A DNA stretch of 38,750 nt from an uncultured Selenomonadales bacterium. Lineage in GTDB: Bacteria > Bacillota > Negativicutes > Selenomonadales > Selenomonadaceae. The translations under genes and the position numbers were made by a program. The stretch is taken from the NCBI GenBank assembly GCA_900314765.1, contig OMWN01000096.1, positions 1 to 38,750 on the forward strand, given 5' to 3'. The stretch's first letter is position 1. Each line of letters begins with the position of its first letter. Below the pieces are notes generated by a model. The model did not search any database. It was not told the DNA's origin and was given only the letters and a program-made list of their open reading frames with translations. This document shows positions 6,898 through 11,046 of this stretch, piece by piece.

Positions 6898-7419
6898 TTA
6901 CGCCTTCTCCTTTACATCAACGCCCCATGCCTTCATTTGCGCTATTGCCACGTCGGTGACTTTCGGCACAAGCGCGGCGATTTTCGGTGAAAGCTCCATG
7001 CCTGCCTCGAGATCTTCGGGCGACGCGCCGATAACGACGATGTCAGGTATAGATTTCCCCGTGAGCTCGAGGAGTGTCAACACATCTTGTATGCCAATCT
7101 CATGAGCCGAGAGCTTTTCCGTGAAGTGCGCCTTTATCTCGTCGCCGACGAATTTGTATATGGTACCAGCGGGCTCATCGCCCTTCACCGCGTCGATTAT
7201 CAGAATTTTTTTCGTGCCCGTGATGAATCTGAGTAGCTCCATGCCGAGTGTGCCGCCATCCAACACTTGAACATCGTCGGGAAAATCATAGTTATCATCC
7301 AAAAACTCTGCCACACGAACGCCGAATCCCTCATCGCGCAGGACGATATTTCCGATGCCGAGTATCGTCACGGGCGGAACAATCGGCTCTGCTGATTTTT
7401 CATTGTCGTTTGTCGCCAT
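6898..7419 (-). CDS. [NiFe]-hydrogenase maturation endopeptidase (HyaD/HybD type)
   Basis: Cleaves the C-terminal tail of the [NiFe]-hydrogenase large subunit after nickel insertion. The HybD-family pattern is clear: GIGNIVLRDEGFGVRVAE, LDGGTLGMELL, LIIDAVKG and SAHEIG. Aligned with E. coli HybD, the metal-sensing residues Glu16, Asp62 and His93 correspond to E30, D76 and H106, all present. The length of 173 residues is normal, with about 13 extra N-terminal residues. It starts 2 bases after the hypB stop codon, so the two are translationally coupled. The hydrogenase structural genes and hypCDEF are not in this window. Whether it is hyaD, hybD or another paralogue cannot be decided here. Confidence 0.92.
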   Translation of the reverse strand: MATNDNEKSAEPIVPPVTILGIGNIVLRDEGFGVRVAEFLDDNYDFPDDVQVLDGGTLGMELLRFITGTKKILIIDAVKGDEPAGTIYKFVGDEIKAHFTEKLSAHEIGIQDVLTLLELTGKSIPDIVVIGASPEDLEAGMELSPKIAALVPKVTDVAIAQMKAWGVDVKEKA

Positions 7420-7421
7420 TT

Positions 7422-8078
7422 TCAGCCTCTTTTCCGCTTCACGCCTTCACGCAGATAGTCGAGCCACCCATCGATGCCCTCACCTGTCCTGCATGAGACA
7501 GAAAGCACACGTGCCGACGGATGTATTGTCGTGATGTCATCAACGGCCTGATTCACATCGAAATCCGTATACGGCACGAGGTCGATTTTATTGATGACGC
7601 TGACGGCGGATTCCTTGAAAATCAGCGGATATTTCATCGGCTTGTCATTGCCCTCCGTCACAGAGAGCACGACCACTTTCTCGTCCTCGCCGATGGCAAA
7701 TTCCGCTGGGCAGACGAGATTGCCGACATTCTCGATGACAAGCAAGTCTGTATTATCGAGGTCGAGCTTTGCGAGCACCTTCTCGACCATCGGCGCCTCG
7801 AGATGGCATCCGCCCGTCGTATTGATCTGCACGACGGGCACGCCGTACTTTGAGATGCGGTCAGCATCCTTCGACGTGAACAGGTCACCCTCGATGACCG
7901 CCATGCGAAGCTCGCCATTGAGCGCCTTCATCGTCTGCTCGAGGAGCGTCGTCTTGCCCGAGCCCGGCGAGCCCATCAGATTTATCGTAAATATTTTCTT
8001 CCCCGACAGCATGCCGTGTATCTTCGACGCGATGTCGTCATTTTCCCCGAGTATATCCTTCATAACCTTTACTTCCAC
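7422..8078 (-). CDS. hypB: Hydrogenase nickel incorporation GTPase HypB
   Basis: GTPase that, with HypA, delivers nickel to the [NiFe]-hydrogenase large subunit. The P-loop GSPGSGKT is at residues 36-43, the intersubunit metal site has C91 and H92 (GGCHLEAP) with C123 (NLVCPAEF), and the guanine-specificity motif NKID is near 165. The N-terminal CxxCGC nickel site and the His-rich stretch found in some HypB proteins are both absent, so this is the short form. The start is GTG with AGGAGC 8 bases upstream; the SD begins at the hypA stop codon, which implies coupling. It lies 12 bases downstream of hypA and directly upstream of the maturation protease. Confidence 0.96.
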   Translation of the reverse strand: MEVKVMKDILGENDDIASKIHGMLSGKKIFTINLMGSPGSGKTTLLEQTMKALNGELRMAVIEGDLFTSKDADRISKYGVPVVQINTTGGCHLEAPMVEKVLAKLDLDNTDLLVIENVGNLVCPAEFAIGEDEKVVVLSVTEGNDKPMKYPLIFKESAVSVINKIDLVPYTDFDVNQAVDDITTIHPSARVLSVSCRTGEGIDGWLDYLREGVKRKRG

Positions 8079-8090
8079 GTTTACCAGCTC

Positions 8091-8429
8091 CTATTCCATG
8101 TCGATGTAGTTCACCCTGAGCTCGCGGCCGCTTTTGACAATCATCGTGCCGCCGCAATCGGGGCAAATAAAATTATAATGCTCGATATGGCGCTCTTTGC
8201 CGCACGAATCGCATGTGCCGACGAGCGGCACACGCTCTATGACGAGCTCCGCGCCGTCGGCAAGCGTGCCGCGGACGAGCGATTTCCAGCAAAACTCAAG
8301 CGAGTCAATCTCAACGCCCGCCATCTCGCCGATGAGCAAGCCGACACTCGCGACTTTCGACGCATCATTCTGCTCCGCGTAATCCTTCACGATGCCGAGT
8401 ATGCCCTCGGCAATGCTCATCTCATGCAA
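8091..8429 (-). CDS. hypA: Hydrogenase nickel metallochaperone HypA
   Basis: Nickel chaperone partner of HypB. I place the start at a TTG (8427-8429) because HypA proteins begin Met-His-Glu, and His2 is a nickel ligand. This TTG gives M-H-E-M-S-I-A-E-G-I, exactly the family N-terminus, and a 112-residue protein of normal length. The frame is open upstream to 8522, but those extra 31 residues overlap a likely promoter and resemble nothing. The zinc site shows two CxxC pairs (CDSCG and CPDCGG). A GAGG lies only 3 bases before the TTG, so initiation may be weak. First gene of the hypA-hypB-protease operon. Confidence 0.92.
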   Translation of the reverse strand: MHEMSIAEGILGIVKDYAEQNDASKVASVGLLIGEMAGVEIDSLEFCWKSLVRGTLADGAELVIERVPLVGTCDSCGKERHIEHYNFICPDCGGTMIVKSGRELRVNYIDME

Positions 8430-8478
8430 AAGCCTCACCCGCCTCTTCAATTCATTCGTAGATAATAATTCGACAAAT

Positions 8479-8520
8479 AAATTTTTAATCCTGCTTCCAA
8501 AGATATACAAATTTTTAATC
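8479..8520 (-). promoter_or_regulatory. Candidate hyp promoter with paired 12-bp direct repeats
   Basis: A 12-bp sequence (AAATTTTTAATC on the plus strand) occurs at 8479-8490 and 8509-8520, exactly 30 bp apart, about three helical turns. On the minus strand a TTGTAT (8505-8510), 17-bp spacer and TAAAAA (8482-8487) fall so that each repeat overlaps one promoter box. This could be an operator for the hydrogenase maturation operon; the binding protein is unknown. Confidence 0.35.
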
Positions 8521-8578
8521 ACGACGCGTTAGAGCGGCCTCAATCTCCACTTATGATTTGCACATCATTGAGCAACAC

Positions 8579-8625: not shown

Positions 8626-9507
8626 TCAGAGCATAGCGGCATACTTTGGAAAATCATCCCTATTAATATTAAGGAATTCCATAGCTTGCTCAGCCGTATA
8701 ATTTAACTTTTTCATTACTCTGCGAATATAAGACACACGCTCTTTGTCAAACTCGACGCGTTCCGCTTCAACTGCCTCGCGTTTTTCTTCTTCGAACAGT
8801 CGTCCAACCTTCGTCATCCTGATCCTCTCCTTTATCTTCATAGATGACTCATCATCAATCACCTTATCACAAAACACCAAAAGACCAGACAATATCATGG
8901 TCAACATCTTATCGTCCTGCAGCCTGTCGGCTAGGTCAATCGCTTTAGTGATTGCCTCCTGCTTCATCTTCCTCGCCTTATACGTCAGCGGAAAAATCAT
9001 GAGTTGCATGCAGTCCTTGTCGCTCAATGGCTCTCCAGTCTTCAGCTTATAATCAATCGTATTATAAATCTCATCACCAGACAGCTCACTCAAAAAGGAC
9101 GTATAAATATGAAGCCCAAGTGAATCCATATTGACATCGTCATCCGTCATGCCGCGCTCAATGTCAGCCGTATAAATCACAATCATCCGCAACCGTGGAA
9201 ACTCGCCATTTTCTATCAAGCATCGTTTCATCACACCCACGAGATAATTTGCGTATTTTACTTTATCCTCTTTTGTATAGCAGCTCTCATAATCGACAAT
9301 CGCCCAACTGCCATCTTCCAGCATAAAAAGATTGTCAATGCGCAGTTCATAGGCCTCCACCGTCGGCAAATTGGTTGGCTCGACACGCACAATCTTTGGC
9401 AAGTCCAGCCCATACGCTTCAAACGACTTGCCTTTAAGCGTCTCACCCATCCACTTTGAGAAAATGTCCTTATTCTGATACGCAATATCCGTATCGCCGT
9501 CTGCCAT
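8626..9507 (-). CDS. Putative Rpn/PD-(D/E)XK nuclease-family protein
   Basis: Likely member of the recombination-promoting nuclease (Rpn)/transposase-like PD-(D/E)XK group, from overall pattern only. The motif ELRIDNLFMLEDG followed by WAIVDYES resembles the Asp and (D/E)-x-(E/Q) catalytic strands of that fold, with Glu/Ser where many members have Gln or Lys, so activity is uncertain. Residues 100 to 200 form a mixed region (RMIVIYTADIERG, LMIFPLT), and the C-terminal third is charged and helical (EEEKREAVEAERVEFDKERVS cut short here), as often seen in these proteins. The start is ATG at 9507 with GGAGG 7 to 8 bases upstream, giving 293 residues. It has its own terminator and is not part of the hyp operon. 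Such genes are often multicopy and mobile-associated, but no inverted repeats were found around it. Confidence 0.5.
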   Translation of the reverse strand: MADGDTDIAYQNKDIFSKWMGETLKGKSFEAYGLDLPKIVRVEPTNLPTVEAYELRIDNLFMLEDGSWAIVDYESCYTKEDKVKYANYLVGVMKRCLIENGEFPRLRMIVIYTADIERGMTDDDVNMDSLGLHIYTSFLSELSGDEIYNTIDYKLKTGEPLSDKDCMQLMIFPLTYKARKMKQEAITKAIDLADRLQDDKMLTMILSGLLVFCDKVIDDESSMKIKERIRMTKVGRLFEEEKREAVEAERVEFDKERVSYIRRVMKKLNYTAEQAMEFLNINRDDFPKYAAML

Positions 9508-9674
9508 CGTGAGACCTCCATATTCATTCTCTATCTGCCTGTATTTTATCACAAATGCCTATTTCTCTCAATAAAACATGGTGAATAATCTGCGTCATAC
9601 GTGCAATGAATAACAGATATACAATTTTTTAATCGCACCGTGTTCAACCATTATTGCTCAATCTCATACGCATA

Positions 9675-9713
9675 CAAAAAATGCAGAAGACGCACCCCCG
9701 TCTCCTGCATTTT
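9675..9713 (-). terminator. Terminator of the HPt-CsoR-HPt operon
   Basis: The stem pairs 9677-9692 with 9699-9713 (AAATGCAG and AGACG arms flanking a one-base mismatch) and is followed on the minus strand by a short T-run. It lies 20 bases past the last HPt gene. Confidence 0.8.
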
Positions 9714-9732: not shown

Positions 9733-10089
9733 TTATTCTTTCTTTCCCAGATATGCCCTCACGTCGTCGCAGGCGTCCGCGTATGCGTCGTAGACTGCCT
9801 TTACGAGTTTTTCCATTTCTGAGCCTTGCTTGCCTGCGAATATGCCCTGCGCGGCTTTGTTCGTCGCGTGGAACAGCCGCTCGAGGCTCAGGTTCGACGA
9901 CGTGCCCATGAGCGTATGGAGCGCCTTGTCCGCCATCGCCATGTCATCCATCTCGACGCCCGTGCAGAACTCGACGAACGAGGCATCATAGAGGAAATCC
10001 TCCAAATATTTTCGATACAGTGGCTCATTGCCCATGAAACGCTCAATTCCATCCTCAGCATTGAGGTCCATGTATTTTTTGTCACTCAT
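9733..10089 (-). CDS. HPt-domain protein (atypical phosphotransfer motif)
   Basis: A stand-alone histidine phosphotransfer (HPt) domain of 118 residues. The helical motif ALHTLMGTSSNLS carries the candidate phosphorylated His at residue 58, but the canonical Lys after HTL is Met here. It is related to the HPt protein two genes upstream: both have the pattern RF-x4-E-x2-Y followed by FxxDAS before the His motif. HPt domains relay phosphate between hybrid histidine kinases and response regulators; neither partner is encoded nearby. The start is ATG with AAGGA just upstream. It is the last gene of a three-gene operon, 14 bases after the CsoR-like gene. Confidence 0.75.
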   Translation of the reverse strand: MSDKKYMDLNAEDGIERFMGNEPLYRKYLEDFLYDASFVEFCTGVEMDDMAMADKALHTLMGTSSNLSLERLFHATNKAAQGIFAGKQGSEMEKLVKAVYDAYADACDDVRAYLGKKE

Positions 10090-10103
10090 GATATTCCTTC
10101 TTC

Positions 10104-10499
10104 TCAGCGCACAAACTTGTCTATTGCATTGCCCAAACTTTCCAATGACTCCTTGTCATTTTCCTGCACCGCCTCGACGATGCAATGCTGAATGTGGTCC
10201 TTCAGAATGACCTTGCCCACATTTTTCAACGCGGAGTCCACCGCTGAAATCTGTATGAGCACCTCGCTGCAGTCGCGGCCTTCCTCGACCATGCGGCGAA
10301 TTGCCTGCATGTGCCCGATGAGCCGCGCCATCCTGTTCAGCACGGCCTTCGTCTGCGTATGCGTATGGGAATGCGTATGCTCATGCTCATGTTCATGGTC
10401 ATGATTATGCTCATGGTCATGTTCGTGAATATGGTCATGCGCAGAAATCATCGTCTCATCTTCTGTATGCTCGTGACTGCCTGTGCTCATACTGCTCAA
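10104..10499 (-). CDS. CsoR/RcnR-family metal-sensing repressor with His-rich N-terminus
   Basis: DNA-binding metal sensor of the CsoR/RcnR/FrmR (DUF156) family. The core starts near residue 51 (VLNRMARLIGHMQAIRRMVEEGRDC). The ligands C77, H102 and C106 keep the spacing of copper-type CsoR (Cys36, His61, Cys65), which points to Cu(I) rather than nickel or formaldehyde sensing. Residues 9-47 hold about 16 histidines alternating with Asp, Glu, Asn or Thr, encoded by CATGAG-like repeats, giving a potential extra metal-binding tail. The TTG start overlaps the TGA of the upstream HPt gene (TTGA), which suggests coupling; an ATG three codons on is an alternative. Being sandwiched between two HPt genes is unusual. 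The regulated genes are not evident; autoregulation of the operon is possible. Confidence 0.88.
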   Translation of the reverse strand: MSSMSTGSHEHTEDETMISAHDHIHEHDHEHNHDHEHEHEHTHSHTHTQTKAVLNRMARLIGHMQAIRRMVEEGRDCSEVLIQISAVDSALKNVGKVILKDHIQHCIVEAVQENDKESLESLGNAIDKFVR

Positions 10500-10852
10500 C
10501 CGTCCCTCTCAGCGAGTATTTTGTAGTTCTTGACCTCGGCGATAAATTCATCGTAAAGCGGCGTGAGGCTGTCGTCGAGTCTGCCCGCGCGCAGTGGCTC
10601 GACAATCTGCACGATGATGTCATAAAGCGGCGTGAGCCCCATGTTGGCCGTGAGCCCTTTGAGCGTATGCGCATGACGAAACGCCGTGTCAACGTCCTTC
10701 GCCTCAAGCGCCTCACCAAGACCCGCTATCGACGCATCATTGACGAATTTTTTAAAAAGCCTCGCGTAGAAATCCTCTTTGTTCAAAAATCTGACGAGTG
10801 CGCCATCAATATCGCACCCACGCGCGCGCAGTTCATTAAGCAATGCGCTCAC
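10496..10852 (-). CDS. HPt-domain phosphotransfer protein
   Basis: A stand-alone HPt protein of 118 residues with the canonical motif RHAHTLKG near residue 59-66; H62 is the likely phosphorylation site. The preceding helix pattern (RFLNKEDFYARLFKKFVNDAS) matches other Firmicutes HPt modules. It is a paralogue of the HPt protein at 9733-10089. The GTG start has AAAGGA about 12 bases upstream, a rather long spacer. It is the first gene of the operon, and its stop codon overlaps the start of the CsoR-like gene. Cognate kinases and receivers must be elsewhere in the genome. Confidence 0.85.
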   Translation of the reverse strand: MSALLNELRARGCDIDGALVRFLNKEDFYARLFKKFVNDASIAGLGEALEAKDVDTAFRHAHTLKGLTANMGLTPLYDIIVQIVEPLRAGRLDDSLTPLYDEFIAEVKNYKILAERDG

Positions 10853-10957: not shown

Positions 10958-10986
10958 AATATATCAAACTTTAAAACCTTTTACAA
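10958..10986 (-). promoter_or_regulatory. Candidate promoter of the HPt-CsoR-HPt operon
   Basis: TTGTAA (10981-10986) and TATATT (10958-10963) are spaced 17 bases apart on the minus strand, about 100 bases before the first HPt start codon. The surrounding 10853-11020 region is AT-rich and holds no other feature I can support. Confidence 0.45.
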
Positions 10987-11020: not shown

Positions 11021-11046
11021 AAAAAATAGACGCCCATCGGCGCCTA
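11021..11046 (-). terminator. Terminator of the decarboxylase/cupin gene
   Basis: An 8-bp stem with one G-U pair (TAGGCGCC against GGCGTCTA on the minus strand, 4-nt loop) is followed by six T. It lies about 30 bases past the stop codon. Confidence 0.75.

Follow-up and report, generated by a model that had tools for sequence, protein, structure and literature searches.

A conserved Selenomonadaceae operon that combines free-standing HPt proteins with an InrS-like CsoR-family repressor

In plants, the pseudo-HPt AHP6 retains the HPt fold and has lost the phospho-His. Bacterial HPts that resemble the proteins described here are HptB and the HPt domains of BarA and Shewanella (3MYF). Among metalloregulators, InrS, the Synechocystis repressor (5FMN) that responds to Ni(II) by weaker DNA binding, was the closest functionally characterised relative of the present CsoR in a PDB search; the copper CsoR proteins of M. 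tuberculosis and Geobacillus (4M1P) share part of its ligand set. A physical tie between CsoR and an HPt-containing signalling protein has been described in P. putida, where CsoR binds CheA (mainly P3, and weakly the HPT and HATPase domains) and inhibits CheA autophosphorylation, an effect that copper weakens (PMC11978298). By two-hybrid assay the same interaction was also detected for B. subtilis, A. caldus, P. syringae and P. stutzeri, and not for three others (PMC11978298). In the open-access full-text literature that was searched, a single paper, on this P. putida CheA, contained both CsoR and an HPt domain, and no description of the operon reported below was found.

The window (the whole 38,750-nt stretch of DNA that was analysed, from an uncultured Selenomonadales bacterium) carries HPt1, CsoR and HPt2 as one tight unit on the minus strand (Table 1), which confirms the three open reading frames of the initial annotation. 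That the genes overlap or nearly touch, as had been stated, also held: taking TTG as the start of CsoR, the gene shares 4 nt (TTGA) with HPt1, although there is an ATG 3 codons further on, and a gap of 14 bp separates it from HPt2. The unit is predicted to be made from a single transcript. Candidates for the shared promoter and terminator that had been proposed were present, both of them weak consensus matches (four promoters and four terminators were found, versus 2.1 and 1.5 expected from shuffles), and the TTTGATATATTTT element of the candidate promoter is common to the window and the sister species G001. The upstream neighbour, a cupin/carboxymuconolactone-decarboxylase gene, ends in a terminator-like hairpin. 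Downstream of the operon, a 308-aa protein (window 8626-9552, minus strand) had no Pfam or NCBIfam match and by eye resembles Rpn/PD-(D/E)XK transposase-like proteins.

Table 1. Coordinates of the HPt1-CsoR-HPt2 unit and of adjoining features in the window
Feature	Position	Strand	Description
HPt1	10496..10852	(-)	Free-standing canonical HPt, 118 aa, GTG start, motif HAHTLKG
CsoR/RcnR-family repressor	10104..10499	(-)	131 aa from TTG, alternative ATG at 10490
HPt2	9733..10089	(-)	HPt-fold protein, 118 aa, LHTLMG: His kept, Lys to Met
Candidate promoter TTGTAA-17-TATATT, extended -10	10958..10986	(-)	Weak consensus match, 9/12
Weak candidate terminator 3' of HPt2	9684..9700	(-)	6-bp stem, 3 G-C pairs
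Candidate terminator of upstream cupin gene	11027..11046	(-)	8-bp stem then T6; separates cupin gene from operon
hypA	8091-8522	(-)	TIGR00100; NiFe-hydrogenase maturation, downstream context; co-transcription of hypA, hypB and hupD with operon only putative
hypB	7422-8078	(-)	TIGR00073; NiFe-hydrogenase maturation, downstream context
hupD-type protease	6898-7419	(-)	TIGR00140; NiFe-hydrogenase maturation, downstream context

CsoR is a member of the PF02583 (Trns_repr_metal) family (E 3e-26, 91.9 bits against a cut-off of 22.8). It had been annotated as a copper-type repressor with a tail of about 16 histidines: the 16 His are there, in an N-terminal extension and not in a C-terminal tail. The copper assignment is doubtful. 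The PDB search matched InrS 5FMN at 2.6e-21 versus 1.4e-15 for copper CsoR 4M1P. In 49/49 CsoR orthologues the W-X-Y-Z positions are His-Cys-His-Cys, as in InrS, with the X-Y-Z Cys-His-Cys that is shared with Cu(I)-sensing CsoR, and position A is Asp, where copper sensors have Tyr. The Cu(I)-sensor second shell (Tyr at A, Glu at B) was not found, position B being variable and Ser in the window, so that the protein differs from copper CsoR by the lack of both residues and by its His at W. It resembles InrS in its H-C-H-C pattern, its His-rich N-terminus and the absence of Tyr at A, and differs in its longer His-rich extension, its HPt flanks and the lack of a conserved Glu at B (98) and C (95), the assignment of C being uncertain because the alignment has a gap close by. 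The fingerprint alignment also included an RcnR sequence, which served for orientation and not as evidence. The authors of the InrS study caution that the metal cannot be predicted from the W-X-Y-Z residues (PMC4235346).

Gene contexts were read as well. No copper efflux or chaperone gene was recognised beside CsoR in the window or in the relatives' loci that were read, and this genome encodes a separate CsoR paralogue, C80, that does show the copper-type Tyr/Glu fingerprint. CsoR orthologues adjoin nickel-type (nik) ABC transporter genes (L098, L101, L106, L108, L195), a CbiK-like gene (L108) and NiFe-hydrogenase or hyp genes (L100, L185); hypAB-hupD lie near the window copy, and a hypE-like gene, identified by eye, is close to the HPts of G001. 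The nickel context thus consists of importer or hydrogenase genes, unlike the nrsD-type exporter of InrS. Because of the InrS-like fingerprint and of these relatives beside nickel transporter and NiFe-hydrogenase genes, nickel or cobalt appears likelier than copper, and copper was rejected as the favoured reading on the residue fingerprint and the gene contexts. In some relatives a class I SAM methyltransferase carries the CsoR orthologue as a C-terminal fusion (L101:7379-8491 in G022, L103:5741-6658 in G039, and L195:5440-6399), and the fusion genes of L101 and L195 are oriented divergently to a nickel-type ABC transporter operon.

The motifs AHTLKG in HPt1 and LHTLMG in HPt2 are as originally described. 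HPt1 scored above the Pfam Hpt cut-off (E 2e-9), carries the HxxKG site in addition to the fold of known free HPts, and was modelled by AlphaFold (AF2) with a pLDDT of 94. HPt2 scored below the cut-off (E 0.026, 15.2 bits against 24.6) and lacks a complete HxxKG site, His being present and Lys replaced by Met. Its AF2 model (pLDDT 92) had HPt structures as best Foldseek matches (3MYF, TM 0.82-0.84; BarA 3IQT, 0.76; HptB 7C1I, 0.77), and the model thus assigns it the HPt fold. Both window proteins differ from the known HPts in being encoded with a metalloregulator rather than with a kinase or regulator, and HPt2 also in its altered site.

The two proteins had been called paralogous: both are HPts (HPt2 by fold), and they are not close duplicates. 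In a tree of 35 HPt sequences, HPt1 sequences form one orthologue clade (support 95/94) and HPt2 sequences another (100/98), and HPt1 groups against HPt2 (100/98) with HPt3, the free HPts that other genomes encode next to response regulators and hybrid kinases. This grouping rules out a local tandem duplication, and therefore HPt1 and HPt2 are no recent tandem pair; to judge from the tree, they are separate old lineages that both ended up beside the same repressor. The CheA P1 branch was too long for P1 to be placed as the origin of the HPts. Pairwise dN/dS was 0.01-0.07 for HPt2, pairs with lost His included, about 0.05-0.11 for HPt1 and 0.08-0.18 for CsoR, several dS values being saturated. 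Given this low dN/dS despite the altered site, HPt2 probably still has a role for which efficient phosphotransfer is dispensable. At L093-L096, HPt3 adjoins a conserved receiver protein of about 435 aa, with a hybrid kinase as well in L094 and L095, and these loci are candidate complete phosphorelays of the relatives.

A survey of the neighbourhoods of CsoR homologues, as the initial annotation had proposed, found the HPt-CsoR linkage conserved across several genera; the possibility that it is absent in all relatives was not borne out. A CsoR match, in most cases to a close orthologue, was obtained in 138/189 family genomes, the named relatives (S. ruminantium, S. ruminis, Mitsuokella) being Selenomonadaceae, and HPt1 and HPt2 profiles were run on the same 189 genomes. 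Strong HPt2 matches were obtained in 42 genomes: no more than 150 bp from CsoR and on its strand in 33, about 6.3 kb downstream of CsoR in six, and without an orthologous CsoR in three (G001, G030, G175). In G016 (L089:1383-7483) csoR and HPt2 are separated by an RND-type transporter gene and a further two long ORFs, and five other g16 genomes share this spacing. HPt1 was strongly matched in 29 genomes and adjoins CsoR in all 14 that have both; an orthologous CsoR was not found by search in the remaining 15, and HPt1 persists without CsoR across genus g21. The full HPt1-CsoR-HPt2 order occurs in genera g1, g7, g20 and g29, HPt1-CsoR without HPt2 in G020, G023 and G033, and CsoR-HPt2 without HPt1 in g3, g4, g14, g16, g26 and G114. 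In G001 (draft genome, 82% complete), HPt1 and HPt2 are about 145 bp apart and CsoR is absent. Among 80 CsoR loci from species genomes, HPts were present at eight, all Selenomonadaceae or Selenomonadales, and were absent at about 40 loci of Lachnospiraceae, Oscillospiraceae and other Clostridia; most CsoR orthologues in relatives have no HPt neighbour.

Being conserved in relatives, the arrangement is no chance one; it dates far back within the Selenomonadaceae and, as far as sampled, is confined to this family, a conserved lineage-specific operon built from known protein families. Relatives of Selenomonas that carry the three-gene unit live in the gut and rumen. The link between CsoR and the HPts is not obligatory, each occurring without the other. 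It is conceivable that independent genes gathered at a permissive site (often 3' of ileS) under one promoter and were kept there by descent with no functional link. The frequent housekeeping neighbours (ileS, prfC, tkt and rplQ, assigned by eye except for ileS), the occurrence of each gene apart from the other and the failure to find a CsoR operator agree with such an incidental cluster, which we consider rather unlikely; against it, two HPt lineages flank one CsoR in several genera with tight overlaps, and HPt1 lies next to CsoR in every genome that has both.

The most instructive part of the operon is the stepwise decay of the HPt2 active site. HxxKG is intact in 28/28 genomes that have hybrid receivers and no HPt1, and altered in 12/12 genomes with HPt1, Lys being replaced by Ile, Val, Met or Arg. 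The His was replaced by Ile, Gln or Tyr in 3 of these 12 genomes, and by Asp in 2/2 genomes lacking both HPt1 and hybrid receivers (hybrid REC). G001, G029, G174 and genus g30 have Tyr, Ile, Gln and Asp, respectively, in place of the phospho-His, and the loss of this residue was judged, from residue identity and lineage, to have occurred about four times. HPt2s from HPt1-bearing genomes form one clade in the tree, and therefore the active-site shift itself may have few origins. The HPt2s without His resemble AHP6 in that loss; the window HPt2 differs in keeping its His, which places it outside the pseudo-HPts in the sense of an absent phospho-His, and an inhibitory role like that of AHP6 is only putative. 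The series (canonical, Lys lost, His lost) offers a natural bacterial record of a phosphotransfer protein becoming seemingly non-catalytic, under purifying selection throughout, and it correlates with HPt1 and hybrid kinases.

HPts matched by the HPt2 profile also co-occur with hybrid-type receivers in the 189 genomes (both in 136, neither in 35, discordant in 18; Fisher 9e-23, relatives being counted as independent though they are not), and the co-occurrence and motif patterns rest partly on shared ancestry. The window's own genome has at least three HisKA-HATPase-REC hybrid kinases whose part that was read contains no HPt (C29, C31, C58:12115) and one hybrid kinase that carries its own (C58, 1000 aa); no HPt was found in this genome beyond HPt1, HPt2, that kinase and the P1 domains of CheA. 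The window HPts have neither a kinase nor a regulator gene beside them, so their partners were deduced by elimination.

Building on the gene order, conservation, fold, motif pattern, hybrid-kinase co-occurrence and constraint that were observed, our preferred model, to which we assign a probability of roughly 45%, is as follows. One transcript of a small Selenomonadaceae operon would yield HPt1, an InrS-type metal-sensing repressor and HPt2. HPt1 would be the working shuttle, predicted to relay phosphate between response regulators and those hybrid histidine kinases that lack an HPt. HPt2 would be the older HPt of the locus, whose catalytic site lost constraint once HPt1 was present, and would now most likely dock on receiver or kinase domains without efficient transfer, as a pseudo-HPt or near-pseudo-HPt. 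CsoR, most likely a Ni(II)/Co(II) sensor, would most likely have nickel uptake and hydrogenase genes as its targets, and co-transcription with the 4-nt overlap would tie its level to that of the HPts. The evidence supports co-expression; a direct link between CsoR and the HPts is unproven. We regard as quite unlikely the bolder extension that CsoR and the pseudo-HPt jointly gate the availability of the working HPt by nickel status, i.e. a metalloregulator directly gating a multistep phosphorelay, which would feed metal status into His-Asp signalling from the cytosol with no sensor kinase involved. A conserved operon of a nickel-type CsoR and free HPts would be a natural system for asking whether metal sensors feed phosphorelays.

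By analogy with P. putida, modulation of CsoR by an HPt, or of an HPt by CsoR, is possible. In its explicit form, CsoR would bind HPt1 or HPt2 metal-dependently, apo-CsoR restraining the phosphorelay and metal releasing it, or else phospho-HPt would alter DNA binding by CsoR, with HPt2 as an adaptor. The metal-dependent contact between CsoR and CheA gives this a precedent (PMC11978298), and two separate HPt lineages beside the same CsoR orthologue, often with the 4-nt overlap, and the retention of HPt2 after its active-site change are in its favour. The P. putida contact is, however, mainly with the CheA dimerisation domain, absent from free HPts, and concerns a kinase/repressor pair that came from interaction screening, with copper instead of nickel and without a conserved operon with free HPts. 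With HPt1 and HPt2 retained in the CsoR-less G001, HPt1 lacking CsoR in 15 genomes and HPts lacking beside most CsoR orthologues, a direct complex is unlikely.

The main reading of the initial annotation was that the metal sensor may control the phosphorelay components, i.e. that CsoR regulates its own operon and metal induces both HPts. The linkage itself proved conserved, a candidate promoter of its own precedes the operon, and autoregulation is common among repressors of the CsoR family. Against such control, the G-tract inverted repeat typical of CsoR/RcnR-family operators was found in 0/12 regions upstream of HPt1 operons (window and 11 relatives), the -10 element is retained in G001, which has no CsoR, and HPts persist without CsoR elsewhere; we consider autoregulation improbable.

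A scan of the own genome for CCCCC-N(1-4)-GGGGG returned 90 sites and was useless for defining a regulon, since most of the sites inspected belong to a single interspersed repeat. CCCCC-N3-GGGGG occurred about 90 times (e.g. L134-L140, L143) and the reversed control not at all, and most inspected copies belong to a repeat of about 50 bp, CCCTCTCCGCCCCCTGCGGGGGCACCTCCCCCAGAGTGGGAGGCATA. Of the tracts near nickel transporter genes, the one between csoR and nikB in L098 was discarded, as it looks like a terminator and is followed by a T-run. The tract CGTACCCCCCTGGGGGGGCTTATG (L106:5974-5999, G211), which follows csoR directly and is flanked by a terminator and by the -10 region upstream of nikB, is possibly a better operator candidate. 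In the own genome, GATAGGGGGTAGGGTATACCCCTCCC (C22, L144 about 2890-2925), upstream of a nikB-like gene, resembles by eye a CsoR/RcnR-type operator.
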